A stretch of DNA of 64,000 nucleotides, taken from NCBI RefSeq assembly GCF_900230285.1, contig NZ_OCNK01000001.1:1283518-1347517 (forward strand), read 5' to 3'. This document shows, one piece after another, positions 10,464-20,808 of the stretch. Each line of letters begins with the position of its first letter. Position 1 is the stretch's first letter. Made by a program: the position numbers and the translations under genes. The DNA is from Blastococcus haudaquaticus (lineage in GTDB: Bacteria > Actinomycetota > Actinomycetes > Mycobacteriales > Geodermatophilaceae). The notes below the pieces were generated by a model that was not told the DNA's origin, did no database searches, and worked only from the letters and a program-made list of their open reading frames with translations.

Positions 10464-11948
10464 ATGGTGGAACCGGGGCGTCGCACCCTCGGCGACCGCT
10501 ACGAGCTCGGCTCCCTGCTGGCCACCGGCGGCATGGGCCAGGTGTGGCGGGGCCGGGACACCCTGCTCGACCGCCCCGTCGCGGTGAAGGTCCTCCGCAA
10601 CGAGTTCACCGGGGATCCGACCTTCCTCGCCCGCTTCCGCGCCGAGGCCCGGCACACGGCGGTCCTGGCGCACCGCAACATCGCCGCCCTCTACGACTAC
10701 GGCGAGGAGACGGCGCAGGACGGCACGGGGGAGACCCTCGCCTACCTGGTGATGGAGCTGGTCGACGGCGAATCGCTGTCGGACCTGCTGGCGCGCGAAC
10801 GGCGGCTGCCGGTCGGGCCGACCCTCGACCTGCTGGAGCAGACCGCCGCCGGACTCGCGGCGGCGCACGCGGCGGGTGTGGTGCACCGGGACGTCAAGCC
10901 GGGCAACGTGCTGGTCGGCGCGGACGGCACGATCAAGATCACCGACTTCGGCATCGCCTGGTCGGCCTCCAGCGTCCCGCTCACGCAGACCGGCCAGGTC
11001 GTCGGCACGGCGCACTACCTGTCGCCCGAGCAGGCGGCCGGCACCAAGGCCGGCCCGGCCAGCGACGTCTACAGCCTCGGCATGATCGGCTACGAGTGCC
11101 TGGCCGGACGCCGGGCGTTCGACGGCGACAACTCCGTGCAGATCGCGCTCCGCCAGCTCCGGGACACCCCCGACCCGTTGCCGGACGACGTCCCCGAGAA
11201 CGTCCGCCGGCTGATCGGCCGCGCGTTGCTCAAGGACCCGGCCCAGCGGTTCCCCGACGGCGCAGCCTTCCGCGACGCCGTCGCCGACGTGCTGGTCGGC
11301 CGCATGCTCACCCCACCCCCGGTGGACACCGGCACCCGCCGGTTCGCGGCCGTGGCGGGCCCGCCGCCGCGCCGCCGGTGGCTGCGGGTGCTGGCGCCGG
11401 TCGCCGCTCTCCTGGCCGGCGCCGGGATCGCGGTCGCCGGGGTCCAGCTCGTCGGCAGCGATCCGCCGCCGGCCACCGCCGCGGGGCCGACGACGGTCGT
11501 CCTCGTCGCCGACGACTACCTGGGCCGGCCGGTCGGCGAGGTGGAGGCGGAGCTCGGGGCCTCCGGCTTCGCCGTCGAGCGCCGGGCGGAGGAGACGGCG
11601 GCCCGACCCGCCGGGACGGTCACCGCGATCTCCCCGGCCGGCGCAGTCCGCGTCGGCTCGACCATCGTCGTCCGCTACGCGGTGGCCCCCGCCGTCGCCC
11701 CGGTGAGCGAGACCCCCGCCCCCCGGCCGGCGGAGGTTCCGCAGTCCGGCGGCGGGCCCGGGACGGCGGTCTCCCCGCCAGTGGCCGGGAACGCGGGCGA
11801 GGCGGCTGACGATGGGGCCGACGAGGGGGCCGACGAGGGCGGGGCCGACGACGCCGACGACGCGGCGCCCGGGAACGGGAACGGGAAGGGGAACGGCAAC
11901 GGGAACGGCGGCGGTAAGGGCAACGGGCGGGGCCGCGGCGACGGCTGA
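10464..11948 (+). CDS. PASTA-domain Ser/Thr protein kinase 2 (tandem paralogue)
   Basis: A 494-residue paralogue of the preceding kinase, with the same layout: catalytic domain with K42, HRDVKPGN and DFG intact, a membrane segment at about 313-337, and one PASTA domain (about 350-415). Residues MVEPGRR at the start and GEETAQDGTGETLAYLVMEL in the middle are shared with kinase 1, showing a local duplication. The tail differs: it is acidic (DDGADEGADEGG) and then purely Gly/Asn/Lys/Arg (GNGNGKGN type repeats). I chose ATG 10464, preceded by AGGAG, over an upstream in-frame start that lacks one. Confidence 0.92.
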   Translation: MVEPGRRTLGDRYELGSLLATGGMGQVWRGRDTLLDRPVAVKVLRNEFTGDPTFLARFRAEARHTAVLAHRNIAALYDYGEETAQDGTGETLAYLVMELVDGESLSDLLARERRLPVGPTLDLLEQTAAGLAAAHAAGVVHRDVKPGNVLVGADGTIKITDFGIAWSASSVPLTQTGQVVGTAHYLSPEQAAGTKAGPASDVYSLGMIGYECLAGRRAFDGDNSVQIALRQLRDTPDPLPDDVPENVRRLIGRALLKDPAQRFPDGAAFRDAVADVLVGRMLTPPPVDTGTRRFAAVAGPPPRRRWLRVLAPVAALLAGAGIAVAGVQLVGSDPPPATAAGPTTVVLVADDYLGRPVGEVEAELGASGFAVERRAEETAARPAGTVTAISPAGAVRVGSTIVVRYAVAPAVAPVSETPAPRPAEVPQSGGGPGTAVSPPVAGNAGEAADDGADEGADEGGADDADDAAPGNGNGKGNGNGNGGGKGNGRGRGDG

Positions 11949-12057
11949 GCCGGCTCCGCGCGCGGTCGGGCCGGCATGACAGGATCGCCGGCGAGCCCCG
12001 GCGGACCGGCCGGGACACGGGACGGGCGTCGCGACCGAGCGAGCCGGGCAGGGTGGG

Positions 12058-13872
12058 GTGACGAGCGGCGTGGGGGAGCGGTCCGGCGAGCCGCCGCAGA
12101 CCGACTACGCGGCCGTCTTCCGGGCGATGCCCACCCCGTACCTGGTCATGACGCCGGACCTGGTCATCGCCGACGCGAACCCGGCCTACCTGGCGAGGAC
12201 GGGCCGCCGCCTCGACGAGCTCGTGGGCCGGCCGGTGTTCGACGCGTTCCCGGGCAACCCGAACGAGACCGACCCGGACGGCGGCGCCACGCGGATCCGC
12301 GCCTCGTTCGAACGGGCCCGGGACACCGGCCTGATCGACACGATGGAGCTGCAGGAGTACGACATCCCCGACGGCCGGGGCGGCTTCTCCCAGCGGTTCT
12401 GGAGCCTGATCAGCATCCCGGTGGTCGACGGGAGCGGCGCGTGCCGGTACGTCATCCAGCGCGCCGAGGACATCACCGACTACGTCCTCGACCAGCGGGG
12501 CGCGGGCGATCGCGGGGAACCGAGCCACGGCATGGAGTGGCGCCGCCGCGTGCTCGACGTCGAGTCCGACCTCTTCGCCCGGGGGCTGGAGCTGGCGGCG
12601 TCCCGGGAGGCGGAGCTGGCCACGGCACGCCGCCTCGCCGCGCTGGCGGGGGTGGCCCTGGATCTCGCAGCGGCGGACAGCGTCGAGGAGCTGGTCCAGA
12701 TCGTGTCGGTGAGCGGCCTGGAGGCGCTCGGCGCCCACGGTGCGGCCGTCGCCGTCCGCGACGGTGAGCTGCTGCGGCTGGAGCTCACCGAGGACCTCGG
12801 CCCCGTCGCTCGTGAGCGGTACGCCGTGCTGCCCCTGGACGCCCCCCTGCCCGGAGCCGTCGCCGCGCGGACCGGACGCACCCTCGTGCTCCCCGATCGC
12901 GCCGCCACGGTGGCCTTCGCCGCCGAGATGGCCGAGGCCGTCCAGTCCACGGGGAACGAGGCATGGGTCGCCCTGCCGCTGCAGGCGGGCTCGCGCAACC
13001 TCGGCTCCCTGATGGTCGGCTGGACGCGGGCGCAGGCCTTCACGGCCGAGGACATCGACCTGCTGGAGGCGTTCGCCGCCCAGTGCGCGCAGGTCCTCGA
13101 CCGCATCCAGACCCGGCAGGCGGAGCGGGCGGCGCACGCGGCGGTCCGCGGGATGGCGGAGGCCCTCCAGCGCAGCCTGCTGACCGAGCCCCCGCAGCCG
13201 GCGGACCTGGAGATCGCCGTCCGGTACCTGCCGGCGGCGGAGCAGGCCCAGGTCGGCGGCGACTGGTACGACGCCTTCATGGTGGGCGACGGCAGCACCA
13301 TGCTGGTCATCGGCGACGTCACTGGGCACGACCGGCACGCCGCCGCGGCCATGGCCCAGGTCCGCAACGTGCTGCGCGGCGTGGCGCACAGCCAGCCCGA
13401 GTCACCCGCCCGGGTCCTCGCCGCGCTCGACCGGGCCATGGGCGATCTCGCCGTCGGCACCCTGGCCACCGCCGTCCTGGCGCGGGTGGAGAACGGCCCC
13501 GACGGCGCCGGGTGCCAGCGGTTGCTGCGCTGGTCGAACGCCGGGCACCCGCCCCCCGTCCTGGTCGAGGCCGACGGCACGGTCACCCTCCTGGAGAGGA
13601 CGCCCAACCGGCTGCTCGGCGTGGAGGCGGGCTCCCTGCGGGTGGAGCACGTCTGGCTGCTGCCGCCGGGCGCGACGCTGCTGCTCTACACCGACGGCCT
13701 CGTGGAACGCCGGGGCGCCACCCTCGACGACGGGATGGCCTGGCTGTGCGAGGAGGTGTCCCGGCTGCACGCCCTGCCGCTCGACGAGTTGTGCGACCGC
13801 CTGCTGGAGGTCCTGCCGGCGGAGCTGGACGACGACGTCGCGATCCTCGCGCTGCGGGCACGGCACACCTGA
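12058..13872 (+). CDS. PAS-GAF-PP2C (SpoIIE/RsbU-type) phosphatase
   Basis: A 604-residue regulator with an N-terminal PAS domain (about 20-135), a GAF domain (about 195-355) and a C-terminal PP2C/SpoIIE phosphatase domain (about 385-600). Metal-binding and catalytic motifs GGDWYDAF and VIGDVTGHD and the closing DDDVAIL are present. Proteins like this dephosphorylate anti-sigma-factor antagonists (STAS proteins) in partner switching, in response to signals sensed by the PAS and GAF domains. It follows the two Ser/Thr kinases on the same strand, but RsbU-type phosphatases act on STAS proteins rather than on kinase substrates, so a functional link is not shown. No STAS antagonist is encoded in the window outside the SulP C-terminus. 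Confidence 0.9.
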   Translation: MTSGVGERSGEPPQTDYAAVFRAMPTPYLVMTPDLVIADANPAYLARTGRRLDELVGRPVFDAFPGNPNETDPDGGATRIRASFERARDTGLIDTMELQEYDIPDGRGGFSQRFWSLISIPVVDGSGACRYVIQRAEDITDYVLDQRGAGDRGEPSHGMEWRRRVLDVESDLFARGLELAASREAELATARRLAALAGVALDLAAADSVEELVQIVSVSGLEALGAHGAAVAVRDGELLRLELTEDLGPVARERYAVLPLDAPLPGAVAARTGRTLVLPDRAATVAFAAEMAEAVQSTGNEAWVALPLQAGSRNLGSLMVGWTRAQAFTAEDIDLLEAFAAQCAQVLDRIQTRQAERAAHAAVRGMAEALQRSLLTEPPQPADLEIAVRYLPAAEQAQVGGDWYDAFMVGDGSTMLVIGDVTGHDRHAAAAMAQVRNVLRGVAHSQPESPARVLAALDRAMGDLAVGTLATAVLARVENGPDGAGCQRLLRWSNAGHPPPVLVEADGTVTLLERTPNRLLGVEAGSLRVEHVWLLPPGATLLLYTDGLVERRGATLDDGMAWLCEEVSRLHALPLDELCDRLLEVLPAELDDDVAILALRARHT

Positions 13873-14833: not shown

Positions 14834-16117
14834 GTGGGTACGCGCGCAGGCATCGTCGTCACCGGGACCGAGGTGCTCACCGGTCGGGTGCCCGACCGCA
14901 ACGGGCCCTGGCTCGCCGAGCAGCTCCGCCTCCTCGGCGTCGACGTGGGCCACGTGGTCGTCGTGGGCGACCGCCCCGAGGACCTGCGGGCGGCCCTCTC
15001 CTTCCTCACCAGCACCGGCGCCTCCCTCGTCATCACCTCCGGCGGGCTGGGGCCGACGGCCGACGACCTGACCGCGGAGGTCGTGGGCGCGTACCAGGGA
15101 CGGCCGTCCGCGGTGGACGCCGAGCTGGAGCAGCGGATCGCGGCGGTGGTCGAACGGCTGATGGCCCGCCGCGGCTGGCGGACCGACCCGTCCGCGACGG
15201 CGGCCGGCGTCCGCAAGCAGGCCCGGGTGCCCGACGGCGCGACCGTGCTCGGACCGGTCGGCACCGCACCGGGTCTCGTGGTGCCGCCGGCGGACGGGCG
15301 GGACGGACCGACGGTCCTGGTGCTCCCCGGTCCGCCGTCGGAGCTGCAGGGCATGTGGCCCGACGCGGTGGCGGCGGCGCCGGTCCGCGCGGCACTGACG
15401 GGTGCGACCGAGCTGCGCCAGGAGACGGTGCGGCTGTGGGGAACGCTGGAGGCGCAGCTCGCCGTCACCCTCCGGGAACTCGACGCGGAGCTCTCCGGGC
15501 TGGAGATCACGACGTGCCTGCGGGAGGGCGAGCTGGAGATCGTCACCCGCTTCGCGCCCGCGGCGCAGGGGGCCTACGACCGGCTCGCCGCGGCGCTGGC
15601 CGCCGAGTACGCCGGCACGATCTTCTCCACCGGCCCGACCCTCGACGAGCTGGTGGGCCGGGCGTTCGCCGATCAGGGCCGGACGGTGGCCACGGCGGAG
15701 TCGTGCACCGGCGGGCTGCTGGCCGCGCGGCTGACCGAGCGGCCGGGATCGTCGGCCTGGGTCCGTGGCGGCGTCGTCGCCTACGCCAACACGGCGAAGG
15801 AGCAGCTGCTCGACGTCCCAGCAGCGCTGCTGGCCGAGCACGGGGCGGTGAGCGCCGAGGTCGCGGTCGCGCTCGCCGAGGGCGCCCGGGCACGGTTCGG
15901 GACGGACGTCGGCGTCGGCATCACCGGGATCGCCGGGCCGGGCGGCGGGTCTCCGGAGAAGCCGGTCGGGACGGTGCACCTGTGCGTCGCGACCGCGGAC
16001 GGCCGGGAGGCGCGCGCCCTGCGGCTGCCCGGTGCACGGTCCGCCGTCCGGGAGCGGTCGGTCACGATGGCGATGCACCTGCTGCGCCGGGCGTTGCTCG
16101 GGGGACCGCCCGCCTGA
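14834..16117 (+). CDS. cinA: CinA family protein (NMN deamidase-type)
   Basis: A 427-residue, full-length two-domain CinA. The N-terminal MoaB/MocF-like domain (about residues 3-170; [13 protein letters not shown] and [12 protein letters not shown]) is followed by the C-terminal PncC-like domain (about 270-425; [16 protein letters not shown], then [20 protein letters not shown]). PncC-type domains hydrolyse NMN to NaMN and ammonia in pyridine-nucleotide recycling; the N-terminal domain in CinA can hydrolyse ADP-ribose. The GTG start is leaderless by its TAGGGT hexamer. It converges on the small membrane gene at 16120 with only 2 nt between the stops. Confidence 0.95.
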
Positions 16118-16119
16118 GG

Positions 16120-16278
16120 TCAGGGCGTGACGGTCACCTCGGTGAAGGGCAGGAGCGGCTCGACCTCGGGGAAGACCACGAAGAGGAGCAGGGCCGCCAC
16201 GGCCAGGACCAGGACCAGCGCCTCGAGCGCCTTCACTGCCGTGCTGCCCGGCAGGCGCCGCCAGATCCAGGTGTACAT
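16120..16278 (-). CDS. Small single-pass membrane protein next to sortase
   Basis: A 52-residue protein: a short basic N-terminus (MYTWIWRRLPG), one membrane helix (about 19-38) and a short acidic exterior tail ending EVTVTP. Small proteins of this form commonly sit directly downstream of class E sortase genes in Actinobacteria, as here (33 nt after the sortase stop, same strand). A role in sortase placement or cofactor use is possible but not established. Confidence 0.72.
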   Translation of the reverse strand: MYTWIWRRLPGSTAVKALEALVLVLAVAALLLFVVFPEVEPLLPFTEVTVTP

Positions 16279-16310
16279 GCGGATGGCCTCCGGAGTCGTC
16301 GCGGGCAGCG

Positions 16311-17159
16311 TCAGCTGCCGAGCGCGGGGGGCCCGTCGGGAGCGGACGCCTTGCTCACCGGGGCGCCGTCCAGCCGGGCGTGGACGATGAGCCGCTGCGC
16401 GGCCGAGTACTTCGGGTGGCACGTGGTGAGCGTCAGGTAGGCGCCCGAGGTCGCGGCGTCCACGGACGCGCCGGGAGTCGGCGAGATGACCGCGGTGTCT
16501 GTCGGCCGGACGATCTCGCGGCCCGGGATGCCACTGGGGTCCGCGCGGAAGTCGCCCGTGGCCGGGTCCCCGAGGACCCGGTAGGTGTACCAGTTGCCCT
16601 CGGTCTCGACCACGATGGCGTCCCCCGGCCGCATGCGGTCCAGGTCGAGGAAGGGTGACCCGCGACCGACGCGGTGGCCGGCCACTGCGAAGTTCCCCTC
16701 CTGGCCGGGCATCGCGGTGTCGAGGTAGTGGCCCGGCCCCTGCTCGAGCTGCACCTGGGCGGTGCCCTCGACGATCACGCGGGAGTAGTCCTCGCCCAGG
16801 CGCGGGATGTGCAGCACGGCGAGCGGCTGACCCAGCTCTGCCTGGAAGGACTCCGGGGCGGGGGCGGGGGCGGGGGCAGGCGCGCCCGCCGGAGGGGTCA
16901 CCGTGGGGGCGTCGGCCGGGGGGGACTCCGCCCACTGCTCCTGGATCTGCTGGCTGAGCTGGTCCTGTTCCCGCGCGGCGATGAGGTCGGTGACGTAGAG
17001 CTCGTAGACGACGAACAGCAGGGCGACGAGTCCGAAGGTGATCAGCGTCTGGCCGATGCCGCGGGACAGCGTCCGCAGCCAGTCGCCCCGCGAGCGCGGC
17101 GCGGCCGCGGTGGGCCGGGTGTCGCTCGGGGGGCTGTCCACGTCGACTGCGCTGCTCAC
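16311..17159 (-). CDS. srtE: Class E sortase (SrtE)
   Basis: A 282-residue membrane-anchored transpeptidase. One N-terminal membrane segment (about 36-58) is followed by a Pro/Ala linker (an APAPAPAP tract encoded by a GGGGGC repeat) and the catalytic domain (about 105-265). The catalytic His is in AVAGHRVG and the Cys and Arg in TLTTCHPKYSAAQR. Class E sortases cleave LAxTG rather than LPxTG signals and link proteins to the cell wall. The next gene upstream on the same strand ends with LAYTG, a membrane helix and a basic tail: an obvious local substrate. Confidence 0.94.
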   Translation of the reverse strand: MSSAVDVDSPPSDTRPTAAAPRSRGDWLRTLSRGIGQTLITFGLVALLFVVYELYVTDLIAAREQDQLSQQIQEQWAESPPADAPTVTPPAGAPAPAPAPAPESFQAELGQPLAVLHIPRLGEDYSRVIVEGTAQVQLEQGPGHYLDTAMPGQEGNFAVAGHRVGRGSPFLDLDRMRPGDAIVVETEGNWYTYRVLGDPATGDFRADPSGIPGREIVRPTDTAVISPTPGASVDAATSGAYLTLTTCHPKYSAAQRLIVHARLDGAPVSKASAPDGPPALGS

Positions 17160-17185
17160 CGCGGATCCTGTCTGCCGGGAGGGGT

Positions 17186-17226
17186 GGGCACCTCCTGCCG
17201 GACGTCGATCCCGGCAGGAGGTGCCC
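17186..17226 (-). terminator. Perfect 16-bp hairpin, distal terminator
   Basis: GGGCACCTCCTGCCGG (17186-17201) pairs perfectly with 17211-17226 around a 9-nt loop. It sits between the end of the repeat-protein gene and the sortase start. No U-tract follows, as is normal for GC-rich actinobacterial terminators. Confidence 0.65.
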
Positions 17227-17294
17227 TGGTCATGCCCTACGGGTGGTGGGTGGTGCCGTACTGGTGTTGCCCTGCTGGTGGTGCTGAGTGGTGC

Positions 17295-17332
17295 CCGGCC
17301 CGCCGCCCTGGATGGGTCGGGCGGCGGGCCGG
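17295..17332 (-). terminator. Perfect 14-bp hairpin after the repeat-protein gene
   Basis: CCGGCCCGCCGCCC (17295-17308) pairs perfectly with 17319-17332 around a 10-nt loop, beginning 4 nt after the stop of the LAYTG protein gene. With the second hairpin at 17186 it makes a double terminator that would separate this gene's transcript from that of the sortase. Confidence 0.7.
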
Positions 17333-17336
17333 TGGA

Positions 17337-18767
17337 TCAGACCGCCGCGGTGGCGGTGCGGCGACGGCCGGCCAGCGTGAGAGCGCCACCCGCACCCAGG
17401 GCCAGGAGGCCCAGGGTCAGCGGAGCGGTGGTCTCGGCGCCGGTGTAGGCCAGCTGGCCCTTCGGCTGTGCGTGGGTGTTCATCGGAGCGGCGGCCCGGT
17501 GGTGGACCGGAGCCGCGGCCTTGTGGTGCTGCTGGACCGGAGCGGCCTCGTGCTTGGCCGGAGCCGGCTGCGCCGGGGCGTGGTGCACCGGCTTCTCGTT
17601 CGGCTTGCAGACCCAGGCGCTGCCGCCACCGGCGGTGGCGTTGTTGGAGCAGGTCACGTCAGCGTCGCCGCCGATCGAGATGATGTTGATGATGTTGGTG
17701 ATGTGCTGCGAGCAGTCGACGTCGCCCTCTTCGCTGTAGCAGGTGAGGGTGTTGTCGTTGCCGACGATGACCTTGATGATCGAGTCGCCGCCGTTGGCGT
17801 TGACGGTGCCGGTCTCGGCGTTGTTGTCGACGTTGTTGCGGGCGTCACTGTCCTGGTCGAGGTAGGTGTCGCCGTAACCGCCGTCGCCGTGCTTGCCACC
17901 GTCTCCGCCACTGGTCACGGAGTCGTTGTCGTTGCGGGCGTTGGCGTTGTAGCGGGCAGCGTTGCCGGCCGCGGCGTTGTTGCTGCCGTGGACCCCGGCG
18001 TCGCCGCCGCGGGAGGCGACGTCGACCTCGTTGTGGATGACCTGCGAGCCCTCGGCGTCGCCCTTGTCGTCGCTGCCGGCGTCGACGGAGTTGCCGTTGC
18101 CGGCGATGACGCCGACGACGGAGTCGCCGCCGTTGGCGTTGACGGTGCCGGACTCGGCGTTGTTGTCGACGTTGTTGCGGGCGTCGGCGTCCTGGACGAC
18201 GTCGGTGTAGGCGTCGCCGCCGTCGCCGTGCTTGCCGGCGTCCCCGCCCGTGGTGACGGAGTCGTTGTGGTTGGAGGCGTCGGCGTTGTACGACGCACCG
18301 TTGCCGGCGGCCGCGTTGTTGCTGTTGCTGACGCTGGCGTTGCCGCCCTGCGACGCGACGTCGACCTCGTTGTGGACGGTCTGCGACGCGTTCACGTCAC
18401 CCTTGTCGCCGCTCCCGGCGTCGACCGAGTTGCCGTTGCCGGCGAACACGATGACGTAGGAGTCGCCGCCGTTGGCGTTGACGGTGCCGGACTCGGCGTT
18501 GTTGCTGACGTTGTTGCGGGCGTCGGCATCCTGGTCGACGACCGTCTCGGCGCCGCCGCCGGAGCCGCCGGAGCCGCCCTCGCCGCCGGTGGTGACCGAC
18601 TCGTTGCTGTTGGCGGCCTCGGCGTCGTAGGAAGCGGTGTTGCCCGCTGCTGCGTTGTTGCTGCCGCTGACGTCTGCGTCAGAGGCGCTCGCCGCCGCCT
18701 GGCCGAGGATGAGGAATCCTCCGGCCATGCCTGCGATGGCGAGTCCGTTTCTCACGGATCGATTCAC
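17337..18767 (-). CDS. LAYTG-anchored Asn/Gly-rich repeat surface protein
   Basis: A 476-residue exported protein. A signal peptide (about residues 1-28) is followed by three tandem repeats of 113 residues (about 30-142, 143-255 and 256-366), each with SNNAAAGN, DADARNNV-NNAESGTVNANG and a VHNEVDVAS-like close; a fourth, truncated unit has four Cys. A His/Pro/Ala linker leads to the sorting signal LAYTG (439-443), a membrane helix and GRRR tail. This is the type of signal used by sortase E, encoded next door. The regular Asn/Gly turns suggest a beta-solenoid or amyloid-like wall fibre; that is inference. GTG 18767 follows an AAAGGA site. I do not recognise a named family. Confidence 0.9.
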   Translation of the reverse strand: MNRSVRNGLAIAGMAGGFLILGQAAASASDADVSGSNNAAAGNTASYDAEAANSNESVTTGGEGGSGGSGGGAETVVDQDADARNNVSNNAESGTVNANGGDSYVIVFAGNGNSVDAGSGDKGDVNASQTVHNEVDVASQGGNASVSNSNNAAAGNGASYNADASNHNDSVTTGGDAGKHGDGGDAYTDVVQDADARNNVDNNAESGTVNANGGDSVVGVIAGNGNSVDAGSDDKGDAEGSQVIHNEVDVASRGGDAGVHGSNNAAAGNAARYNANARNDNDSVTSGGDGGKHGDGGYGDTYLDQDSDARNNVDNNAETGTVNANGGDSIIKVIVGNDNTLTCYSEEGDVDCSQHITNIINIISIGGDADVTCSNNATAGGGSAWVCKPNEKPVHHAPAQPAPAKHEAAPVQQHHKAAAPVHHRAAAPMNTHAQPKGQLAYTGAETTAPLTLGLLALGAGGALTLAGRRRTATAAV

Positions 18768-18798
18768 GTGCGTGTCCTTTGTGAATGTGCGCGTCACA
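17782..18798 (-). repeat. 339-bp tandem coding repeat (3 units)
   Basis: The landmark GAGTCGCCGCCGTTGGCG recurs at 17782, 18121 and 18460, exactly 339 bp (113 codons) apart, marking three tandem units inside the LAYTG-protein gene; the end given extends one period beyond the last landmark and runs slightly past the gene start. Units are similar but not identical at DNA level, so the array is old rather than a fresh duplication. Confidence 0.8.
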
Positions 18799-18915
18799 TG
18801 CGGGTATGAAGTGACGCGCTGGTGAATGGGTGACGAGCGGGGCGGCTGCACTTGGTCGGTGATGTGCCCCCCGTGGCACACCTGAGGACGGACGCAGGCC
18901 GCAGTAGCGGCGGCG

Positions 18916-20016
18916 TCAGTCCGGCCGTGTAGCGGGGTCGGTCGCCGTGAGGGTGGGCGACCCCGCTGCCGGCGCCGCGACGCCGGGCTCGTTCACCGCG
19001 AGGAAGATGTCGGCAGGCGTGCCGAGGACCGCGGCAACGACGGAACCCACGGTCTTGGACGTGCTCTGGCCGGCGCTCTGGCTGCCGCAACCGGCGCCGG
19101 CGACCGTGGGAGCCGGCGCGCTGGAGGACAGCGGCGCCTCAGGGGCGGACGGCTGCGGCGCGGGCTCCGGCGTGACCTGGCCGATGAACTGCTGGGCGAG
19201 CAGGTCCGACGTCTCCGGGGAAGCCGCGCTCGGCGCCACCGCGGGTGCGGTCCGCTCGGCGGCACCGGCGCCCGTCGACCGGGCGGTCCCGGCGGTGCCG
19301 GCGTCCGCGGCCGATCCGGGCACGGCGCAGAGCACGGCGAGGTCGCCGGCGGGCTGGGTGGCCGGCGCCGCGGCCTGAGCCGTCGCCGGAGTCGTTCCCG
19401 AGCAGGCCGGGGCGTCCGTGGTGGCAGCCGTGGCGGTCGCGGACGCGCCTCGCGACTCGTCGCATGCCGACTGTGCCGTGCCGGGCGTCCCGCCCACCTC
19501 GGTGGTCGTGACGGTGGTGGTGCCGTCCCGGTTCGTCGTCGTCGTGGTCGTCGTGTCGGTGGTGGTGGTGGTCGTCGTGGTCACGCTGCTGCTCGTGGCC
19601 GACGCGAGGACGGTGACGTTCCCGGCTGACGCGGAGACATCGTCCGCCGCGGCGCCGCCCGGCGCTGCCGACGCACCCTGCGGTGCCGGCACGGGCTCGG
19701 GAACGCTGCCCGCGGTGGTGGCCACCGACGTGACCGAGGCGCCGATCGCGCTGGTGGAAGCCTCCACGACCGAGGTCACCGTCGACGTGACCACGCTGGT
19801 GATCGAACGCGGGCTCGGCTGCGCCTCTGTCGGTGCCTGATCGGCCTCCGCGGCGACGGGAGCCGGCTCGTCGGCGTGGGCCGCCGCGGCGGTCCCGACC
19901 GCGATGCAGGCGTAGGCCCCGGCCCCCAGGACGCACGCCTGCAGGCTGCGACGGAGCAGCGACCTGCGGACAGGGAACGGCTCCAGGCCGTTCCTGCTCG
20001 CGGTGGTCCCCGTCAT
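18916..20016 (-). CDS. Secreted Ala/Thr-rich protein, function unknown
   Basis: A 366-residue exported protein. The signal peptide has a basic start (VRRSLLRRS), a hydrophobic core and a cleavage site near AAHADE (about residue 49). The mature part is low-complexity Ala/Thr/Ser/Pro with an almost pure Thr tract (TTTTTTTTDTTTTTTT) in the middle, a form expected of a glycosylated or extended wall-spanning stalk. A few Cys residues occur in the second half. There is no LPxTG-type signal or C-terminal helix. It lies upstream of the LAYTG protein on the same strand with 148 nt between, and is probably a separate unit. Family unknown. Confidence 0.75.
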   Translation of the reverse strand: MTGTTASRNGLEPFPVRRSLLRRSLQACVLGAGAYACIAVGTAAAAHADEPAPVAAEADQAPTEAQPSPRSITSVVTSTVTSVVEASTSAIGASVTSVATTAGSVPEPVPAPQGASAAPGGAAADDVSASAGNVTVLASATSSSVTTTTTTTTDTTTTTTTNRDGTTTVTTTEVGGTPGTAQSACDESRGASATATAATTDAPACSGTTPATAQAAAPATQPAGDLAVLCAVPGSAADAGTAGTARSTGAGAAERTAPAVAPSAASPETSDLLAQQFIGQVTPEPAPQPSAPEAPLSSSAPAPTVAGAGCGSQSAGQSTSKTVGSVVAAVLGTPADIFLAVNEPGVAAPAAGSPTLTATDPATRPD

Positions 20017-20167: not shown

Positions 20168-20209
20168 TGGCTGAGACCACAGCGGGGCGACACCCAGGGG
20201 GTGTGGAGC

Positions 20210-20422
20210 ATGGCCATGACGCTCAGGCTGAGCCCGGCGCAGTCCGAGGCACTGCGCCGTCGCGCCGTGGCCGAGGGCGCCTCGATGCAGGACGTCGCCC
20301 GGCGGGCGGTGGAGGCCTACATCCGGGCCCACGAGCCCGAGGTGCCGATCGCGACCGTGATCGACACCGAGCTGCACCGGTTCGCCGGGGCCGTCGAGTG
20401 GTTGAGCCGATGGCGGGACTGA
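20210..20422 (+). CDS. Ribbon-helix-helix antitoxin-like protein
   Basis: A 70-residue protein beginning MAMTLRLSPAQSEALRRRA, the strand-helix pattern of ribbon-helix-helix DNA-binding antitoxins, followed by GASMQDVARRAVEAYI (second helix) and a C-terminal segment likely to contact the partner. ATG 20210 follows GGAG; the ATG two codons later is possible. It overlaps the next gene by 13 nt, as is usual in toxin-antitoxin operons. It probably autoregulates through the repeat at 20151-20167. Confidence 0.75.
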   Translation: MAMTLRLSPAQSEALRRRAVAEGASMQDVARRAVEAYIRAHEPEVPIATVIDTELHRFAGAVEWLSRWRD

Positions 20423-20808
20423 CCCTCGAGGACCTGCTCGAGGTCGCCCGGCGCACGCTCGGGTCGGACATGCGGGTCCGCGACCTGGGGCTGCTCACGG
20501 CCGCGCTGGCCCGGATCGAGGCGCGCGCGCTGGGCCACGACGTGTACCCCACCGTCGAGGAGCGGGCGGCCGCCCTGCTGCACTCCCTCGCCACCACCGC
20601 GCCGCTCGTGCACGGCAACCGGCCCTTCGCGTGGGCGGCGACGGCGGTCTACCTGGCCCGCAGGGGCTGTCCCTCGGCGCTCACCGACGAGCAGGCGGTC
20701 AGCCTGGTCACCGACGTCCTGACCGGCCGCGTCGAGGCCGTCACGGCGATCGCCGACCGGCTGCGCGGGACGAGCGGACCCGCCGCCGGGACGCCGTCCC
20801 CCGCGTGA
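20410..20808 (+). CDS. Fic/Doc-family toxin-like protein with degenerate active site
   Basis: A 132-residue protein with the overall pattern of actinobacterial Fic-family (Doc-like) toxins: LTLEDLLEVARR start, a central ARIEARALGHDVYPTVEERAA-type segment and the WAATAVYLARRG helix. Active members carry H-x-x-x-[DE]-G-N-[KR]-R; here the matching stretch reads APLVHGNRPFAW. The catalytic His is Ala, the acidic residue is His, and the last Arg is Pro; only GN is kept. AMP- or phosphate-transfer activity is therefore unlikely. The start overlaps the antitoxin-like gene; the stop overlaps a GTG (GTGA) ahead of the AidB-like gene. Confidence 0.75.
   Translation: MAGLTLEDLLEVARRTLGSDMRVRDLGLLTAALARIEARALGHDVYPTVEERAAALLHSLATTAPLVHGNRPFAWAATAVYLARRGCPSALTDEQAVSLVTDVLTGRVEAVTAIADRLRGTSGPAAGTPSPA

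Follow-up and report, generated by a model that had tools for sequence, protein, structure and literature searches.

Gene content of the locus

We examined a stretch of 64,000 nucleotides from Blastococcus haudaquaticus (contig NZ_OCNK01000001.1, positions 1,283,518 to 1,347,517; hereafter the window), in which a class E sortase gene, srtE, lies next to the gene of a repeat protein ending in the sorting motif LAYTG. Reading frames show four genes at 16120-20016, all on the minus strand, encoding in 5' to 3' order an Ala/Thr-rich protein, the repeat protein, SrtE and a 52-residue membrane protein. This agrees with a first-pass annotation made from the letters alone, which had described a four-gene surface module on one strand, and its pairing of a class E sortase with a local LAYTG substrate is likewise supported by a model score, an alignment to SrtE1 and the motif itself. 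Beyond that annotation, we show that conservation of the substrate is lowest in its core, whose class differs among close kin, that the cassette is optional, and that the 52-residue gene is a neighbor of SrtE-like sortase genes across the class. The four genes are:

16120..16278, minus strand: single-pass membrane protein of 52 residues, MYxWIWRxLPG ... FPxxEPxLPFxxVTV family, directly 3' of srtE
16311..17159, minus strand: class E sortase SrtE, 282 residues, with a match to NF033747 and with Tyr145, His162, Cys247 and Arg256
17337..18767, minus strand: LAYTG repeat protein, 476 residues, GTG start, from the reading frame
18916..20016, minus strand: secreted-type Ala/Thr-rich protein, 366 residues, from the reading frame and comparison with relatives

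The repeat protein

A signal peptide, an LAXTG motif, a hydrophobic helix and a basic tail follow one another in the expected order in the repeat protein, as read by eye. Its repeat unit is exactly 113 residues long, as first described, with a landmark at residues 36, 149 and 262 and a nucleotide period of 339 (score 1171). Units 1 and 2 are 73% identical, units 1 and 3 48%, and units 2 and 3 53%; unit 3 is set apart from the other two by a Cys pair (C343, C352), no Cys occurring before it. A basic linker rich in Ala, Pro and His leads from the units to LAYTG, while the core (G 17%, N 14%, A 13%, D 11%, S 10%) is acidic and hydrophilic, with a pI of 4.05, a GRAVY of -0.67 and a net charge of about -42. 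The parts of the protein are:

18684..18767, minus strand: N-terminus resembling a signal peptide (residues 1-28, by eye); a conserved end with a median identity of 82%
18324..18662, minus strand: repeat unit 1, residues 36-148, by landmark spacing
17985..18323, minus strand: repeat unit 2, residues 149-261, by landmark spacing
17646..17984, minus strand: repeat unit 3, residues 262-374, the sole unit bearing Cys
17712..17741, minus strand: Cys pair C343-C352 in the last unit
17439..17453, minus strand: sorting motif LAYTG, with a hydrophobic stretch and GRRR behind it; a conserved tail

The repeat had been said to match no known family, and this holds for Pfam, NCBIfam and PDB sequences. Pfam, searched to E 1, returned for the repeat protein only a sub-threshold DUF6264 match in the linker and tail, and nothing above cut-off for ten diverse relatives; NCBIfam returned only sub-threshold LAxTG tail models, and the PDB sequences held no match to the repeat. 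Chaplin and hemagglutinin repeats, a match to which would by the annotation's own terms have counted against it, did not appear in the Pfam scans, and chaplin identity is excluded. Curlin and hemagglutinin-repeat readings were not supported, as no such Pfam model matched to E 1 in 11 proteins, where HMMER filters may hide weak matches. RTX-like and curlin-like readings are also unsupported, the Pfam matches (DUF6264, AsmA, DbpA and others) all lying below cut-off. AlphaFold models of the full-length protein (24-row alignment) and of unit 3 (47-row alignment) had mean pLDDT values of 38 and 44, respectively, too weak for a fold search, which leaves the new structural family suggested by the annotation as a possibility. 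A phage origin was also rejected, since 25 stretches of viral contigs matched the search pattern and none was confirmed as a relative.

The sortase and its motif

SrtE scored 255.3 bits against the class E model NF033747 of NCBIfam (cut-off 160). Alignment to Streptomyces coelicolor SrtE1 (5cuw) and other solved sortases identifies His162, Cys247 and Arg256 as the catalytic residues, and Tyr145, within a GHY sequence, aligns with the GHY tyrosine of SrtE1 in the beta3/beta4 loop. Tyr229 of SrtE1 is the residue through which class E enzymes have been proposed to recognize the alanine of LAXTG, and the primers given in the same paper place this residue after Gly-His (PMC5148588, available text). 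Because the catalytic residues, the class E tyrosine and an LAXTG-type motif are all present, the enzyme and the sorting motif appear to fit each other, making anchoring by the neighboring SrtE likely.

We noticed two further SrtE-like sortases in the same genome, at G000 C6:144511-145434 (locus L064), adjoined by an LAATG gene with an fn3 domain, and at G000 C2:817277 (L063), adjoined by an LATTG gene.

Distribution of the cassette

Protein searches for relatives of the repeat protein returned 87 matches with the single sequence and 109 with a profile, the window's own entry counted; the named matches were Blastococcus, except for one Klenkia and one Bacillus record marked unverified. A substrate match occurred in 17 of 61 genomes, own included, and in none outside Geodermatophilaceae; within this family 43 of 112 genomes matched, many through the tail alone. 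A scan of genome contigs found nothing with the single protein and 11 loci with an alignment, 10 titled Blastococcus and one the unverified 'Bacillus sp. AZ43'. Substrate matches led us to fetch 20 regions, 18 of which hold one or more substrates, srtE and cinA in the window's order; L060 and L061 lack a cassette. With the window, this gives 19 cassettes in two genus groups of Blastococcus-type genomes. The cassette is flanked by:

14834..16117, plus strand: cinA, Pfam PF02464
20826..22451, plus strand: AidB-like acyl-CoA dehydrogenase gene on the opposite side, start codon not fixed, PF18158 and PF00441

We also sought cinA in 25 genomes picked mainly for showing no cassette, and found it in 24; none of these 24 loci had a cassette gene within 1.5 kb of cinA. 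In 18 of the 24, the acyl-CoA dehydrogenase gene adjoins cinA with 36 to 508 nt between the aligned parts; among the remainder, L159 has a short C-terminal dehydrogenase fragment only and five have none. Since the dehydrogenase gene adjoins cinA in cassette-free loci, the cassette has been gained or lost at one site. We show, therefore, that the cassette is optional, through insertion or loss at a single site beside cinA.

The Ala/Thr-rich protein has an equivalent frame in all 16 loci counted (window included; L051, L056 and L057 outside the count). Its start and end are alike and its Thr-rich middle is variable, as judged by eye, a plan of constant ends and variable middle that resembles the substrate's. 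It had no Pfam or NCBIfam match, and we saw no sorting motif in the window copy.

Constant ends and a changing core

We compared 25 complete substrates from 18 loci in 291 cross-locus pairs, leaving out the third copies in L056 (cut) and L059 (no sorting tail) as well as L060 and L061. L051, cut by a contig edge, was kept only in the flank tree and the hairpin alignment, with its core class assigned as A by eye from a partial match; its start (G003 C8:1) reads SDVCSSDL, which we take to be an Illumina adaptor mark and likely an assembly artifact at the contig edge. L047 stands outside the motif and Cys counts and inside the identity and class counts.

Median identity was 0.79 for CinA, 0.72 for SrtE, 0.82 for the signal region and 0.71 for the tail, and only 0.25 for the core plus linker, core identity being below 0.35 in 87% of pairs. 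The sorting motif, whose absence from orthologues the first-pass annotation had thought would count against it, was present in all 24 substrates counted, as LAYTG in 19, LASTG in three and LAFTG in two, L047 outside the count having LAYTR. BLAST clustering sorted the 25 cores into nine classes, which nonetheless share a common plan: the best self-offset is 108 to 145 residues (identity at least 0.30 in 17 of 24, without a shuffled control), and a Cys-X(3-14)-Cys pair occurs in 24 of 24 substrates, by position in the later part of the core. Five loci carry two or three tandem substrate copies, and the complete ones are of a single class within each locus. At third positions of conserved codons the two ends scored 0.62 and 0.64, like CinA and SrtE (0.61 and 0.64), so the ends look kept by selection on the protein. 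The core value is 0.72, which we attribute to codon bias because unrelated cores score as high (window and L052, 0.77-0.82).

Cores against flanking genes

A tree of CinA, SrtE and the dehydrogenase from 19 loci (hereafter the flank tree) places the window's core class in separate positions, requiring five changes, with L051 assigned by eye. The window core is 61% like those of L043 and L044, which belong to the other genus group (CinA 77-78%), and only 22-25% like those of L052 and L050, from the same genus group (CinA 84-85%). Within the window's class, two subtypes each occur across both genus groups: subtype 1 in the window, L045, L043, L044 and L046, and subtype 2 in L048, L047 and L049. 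Constraining same-genus cores together was rejected at a cost of 144 log units (p-AU 7e-65), and constraining the flank-tree pair L045 and L048 together cost 78 log units (p-AU 2.6e-46), in a test of eight fast, compositionally biased cores whose groups were named after the identities had been seen, which tempers its weight in favor of exchange. Core types are shared across the two genus groups in conflict with the flanking genes, which makes an exchange of cores between lineages likely, perhaps accompanied by the loss of old paralogues. We suggest that replacement would proceed by recombination in the conserved ends.

Alternatively, the cores might have diverged in place from one ancestral core, through fast point change and gain or loss of repeats, with no exchange. 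Repeat number does vary, L046 has near-identical adjacent units, and the shared self-offset of 108-145 and Cys pair suggest common descent of the classes; class A may be ancestral, in which case repeated loss would give the five changes, and the ends lack an excess of identical third codon positions. However, divergence in place fits poorly with two subtypes of one class that are each found in both genus groups, contrary to the flank tree, with a window core far closer to the other genus group than to its flank-nearest kin, and with complete tandem copies that are single-class in five loci and so offer no local store of other classes. We therefore consider it unlikely and prefer exchange.

The 52-residue membrane protein

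The 52-residue protein has no Pfam or NCBIfam family, and it is found far beyond the cassette. At the level of the order, 229 of 298 genomes gave a match (E up to 0.01), and at that of the class 86 of 118 did, usually with a single copy per genome. Its gene lies directly behind an SrtE-like sortase on the same strand in 30 of 30 loci from genomes picked among the matches, and in 29 of the 29 best-scoring loci of the class search (59/59 overall); the class E model, applied to 20 of these genomes as well, scored the neighboring sortase above its cut-off in all 20. Conversely, a class E sortase above cut-off was found in 20 of 20 genomes with the gene vs. two of 20 without it (Fisher p 3e-9), the latter being 20 tested out of 32 without it. 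Tyr2, Trp4, Trp6, Pro10, Gly11, Leu31, Phe36, Pro37 and Pro44 are near-invariant among 70 sequences.

The genomic evidence is strong that the 52-residue protein is a likely partner of SrtE, and its mode of action would be one exerted in the membrane. The gene was found in 10 of 19 cassettes and therefore is not required next to the cassette srtE; a copy elsewhere may serve where none was detected in the cassette, the window genome having a second copy beside another SrtE-like sortase. We put forward more tentatively the broader idea that the protein founds an obligate class E sortase subunit family across Actinomycetes, together with the idea that the cassette lets lineages swap whole cores between constant secretion and anchoring ends and so alter the surface of the wall. 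If the protein is a required small subunit, reconstitution and assays of class E sortases would change. UniRef names the P0121 copy 'AcrB/AcrD/AcrF family protein', a misfit for 52 residues that looks misannotated.

Hairpins around the substrate gene

Both perfect hairpins that had been noted between the repeat gene and the sortase are present, and they are uncommon structures, the whole 64 kb holding only five perfect stems of at least 11 bp (loops of 3-16 nt). A shorter one lies upstream of the repeat gene:

17295..17332, minus strand: hairpin 1, perfect 14-bp stem, 4 nt past the substrate stop codon; also in relatives
17186..17226, minus strand: hairpin 2, perfect 16-bp stem upstream of srtE; also in relatives
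18789..18819, minus strand: hairpin with a perfect 9-bp stem, upstream of the repeat gene in the window; possibly regulatory

With at least 8 perfect pairs required, hairpin 1 is present behind the stop codon of the substrate gene in 14 of 15 relative loci, and the exception at that cut-off, L057, shows it in the alignment with a longer loop. The stem of hairpin 1 varies little in sequence, and the changes in L043 and L053 are paired. A second stem of at least 8 bp lies between substrate and srtE in 10 of the 15, and in the five tandem loci a stem of at least 11 bp follows 12 of the 14 substrate copies. Hairpin 1 thus belongs to the substrate gene, since it is found after most substrate copies in relatives, and it would act as a terminator or 3'-end stabilizer of the substrate transcript.

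A probable display cassette with a variable core

Taken together, we consider it probable that the locus serves as a display cassette built on a class E sortase, in which the LAYTG protein, with its variable core, would be exported by Sec and joined to the wall. In this model, predicted Sec export would deliver the LAYTG protein to SrtE, which would cut the motif between Thr and Gly using Cys247, His162 and Arg256, with Tyr145 reading the alanine, and would pass the cut protein to a wall precursor and so to peptidoglycan. The basic Ala/Pro/His linker would then cross the wall, leaving the acidic, Asn/Gly-rich core exposed outside, and the 52-residue protein would act in the membrane as a small partner of SrtE. 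By capping the substrate transcript, hairpin 1 might yield much substrate and little sortase. Secretion, anchoring and partnership are all inferred here from sequence.

Several points weigh against this model. Sortase domains are encoded at six loci of this genome, and four of these sortases are close to SrtE, so that another sortase could act. L047 (9117 onward) reads LAYTR instead of LAYTG, possibly a dead sorting signal in one species; the third tandem copy of L059 (about 10618-12171) lacks a sorting tail and has hairpin 1 five nt behind its stop, possibly representing a secreted, unanchored form or a frameshift. The 52-residue gene was undetected in nine of 19 cassettes, and in G383 and G401 a sortase passes the class E cut-off although no 52-residue gene was detected. 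Finally, third codon positions give no sign of recent exchange via the ends, and part of the pattern among the cores could be old paralogy with loss.

As to what the cassette is for, where the annotation had offered a wall fiber or adhesin, we tentatively favor a variable wall-bound coat or adhesin for contact between cells or with surfaces, changed under pressure from phages or partners that recognize it. The main rival on core function is a functional amyloid, that is, a cross-beta wall fiber in which stacked Asn/Gly-rich units self-assemble and the LAYTG end fixes the fiber. In composition the core may resemble secreted amyloid subunits. Within the same family, Geodermatophilus obscurus makes abundant extracellular functional amyloid whose protein is not named in the available text (PMC3035280). 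Both AlphaFold models, though unusable in confidence, drew strands and no helix, and the correlation of hydrophobicity is negative at lag 1 and positive at lag 2 in several relatives (L053_8301, z -5.8 and 3.6). In the window core, however, alternation is not significant (z -1.0 at lag 1 and 0.9 at lag 2), no curlin model appeared among the Pfam matches to E 1, the net charge is about -42, and a structural amyloid would not ordinarily be expected to change sequence class among close relatives. We thus regard an amyloid fiber as rather doubtful and prefer the variable coat or adhesin.

It may also be asked whether the genes form a working unit at all, as SrtE could be a housekeeping sortase with many substrates and any class E sortase might handle the LAYTG protein. 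The six sortase-domain loci of this genome would allow it, and in Actinoplanes missouriensis srtE and its substrates occupy separate loci (PMC13251363, available text). Nevertheless, srtE lies beside the substrate in 18 of the 20 regions fetched by substrate match, neither srtE nor a substrate lies within 1.5 kb in any of the 24 surveyed cinA loci, and two other sortase loci in this genome each have their own adjoining LAxTG-type gene. The absence of a working unit hence seems quite improbable to us, and we retain the cassette.

Most improbable by far is a chaplin-type hydrophobic sheath for multicellular growth, a role played by LAXTG chaplins and CwpA/CwpB with class E sortases of other bacteria. 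This reading shares the sortase class and the type of sorting signal and would find a parallel in the LAYTG protein with many chaplin matches of the related-genus genome G035, but is largely refuted by a hydrophilic window core (GRAVY -0.67, pI 4.05), by the lack of PF03777 in the window's own genome and its occurrence in only four of 112 family genomes, and by a profile comparison (hhalign) of the units with the G035 protein that gave a probability of 0.1, the sorting tail alone matching; chaplin kinship is accordingly rejected. In G035, two long frames (C1:560639-562045, L079, and C1:2193442-2194839) together hold 17 chaplin matches. The L079 frame, of 646 codons, ends in LAYTG, a helix and RRR, which makes it a chaplin-repeat LAxTG protein in a related genus.

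Relation to known surface systems

Functional work on class E sortases has mostly concerned Streptomyces (PMC13251363), the substrates tested being chaplins in that genus and SspA, CwpA and CwpB in Actinoplanes. A literature search of titles and abstract openings, with most subscription journals outside its scope, gave no description of the 52-residue protein and nothing joining sortases with Blastococcus or Geodermatophilaceae. The Blastococcus locus resembles S. coelicolor SrtE1/SrtE2 and ChpA-C in having a class E sortase with the S3-subsite tyrosine and an LAXTG motif on a secreted surface protein (PMC5148588). Unlike the long chaplins ChpA-C, its core is acidic and hydrophilic, is built of 113-residue units and has no detectable chaplin kinship; unlike in the S. 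coelicolor SrtE/chaplin system, sortase and substrate stand in one cassette and the core varies between species.

A. missouriensis SrtE with CwpA, CwpB and SspA is similar in that a class E sortase is required for surface proteins that lack known domains (PMC13251363, PMC13293333). In contrast to the Blastococcus cassette, LPVTG is common to its substrates, and their genes are found apart from srtE; the available text calls CwpA/B hydrophobic and SspA disordered by prediction, with no mention of a swapped core. Thermococcales modules around hypervariable Ig proteins are also widespread modules built around a hypervariable protein (PMC8416519), an analogy only, as domain of life, protein and anchoring all differ.

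The locus offers a compact sortase-substrate pair and a natural series of cores for probing surface variation in actinomycetes. Its main interest lies in a core that appears exchangeable between constant ends at an optional site, and in a class-wide 52-residue neighbor of the sortase. Fibrillar adhesins and curli-like repeats combine a repeat stalk with a wall anchor and are Asn/Gly-rich; unlike them, the substrate matched no Pfam adhesive domain or curlin model.

Neighboring genes

Between the cassette and the dehydrogenase gene, two small plus-strand frames encode a ribbon-helix-helix protein (20201-20422), FitA-like with a score under cut-off and overlapping the next gene, and a Fic/Doc-like protein (20410-20808; 22.9 bits vs. 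a cut-off of 24). They likely form a toxin-antitoxin pair; both genes recur in four of the 18 relative loci that carry a cassette, as well as in the cassette-free L061.

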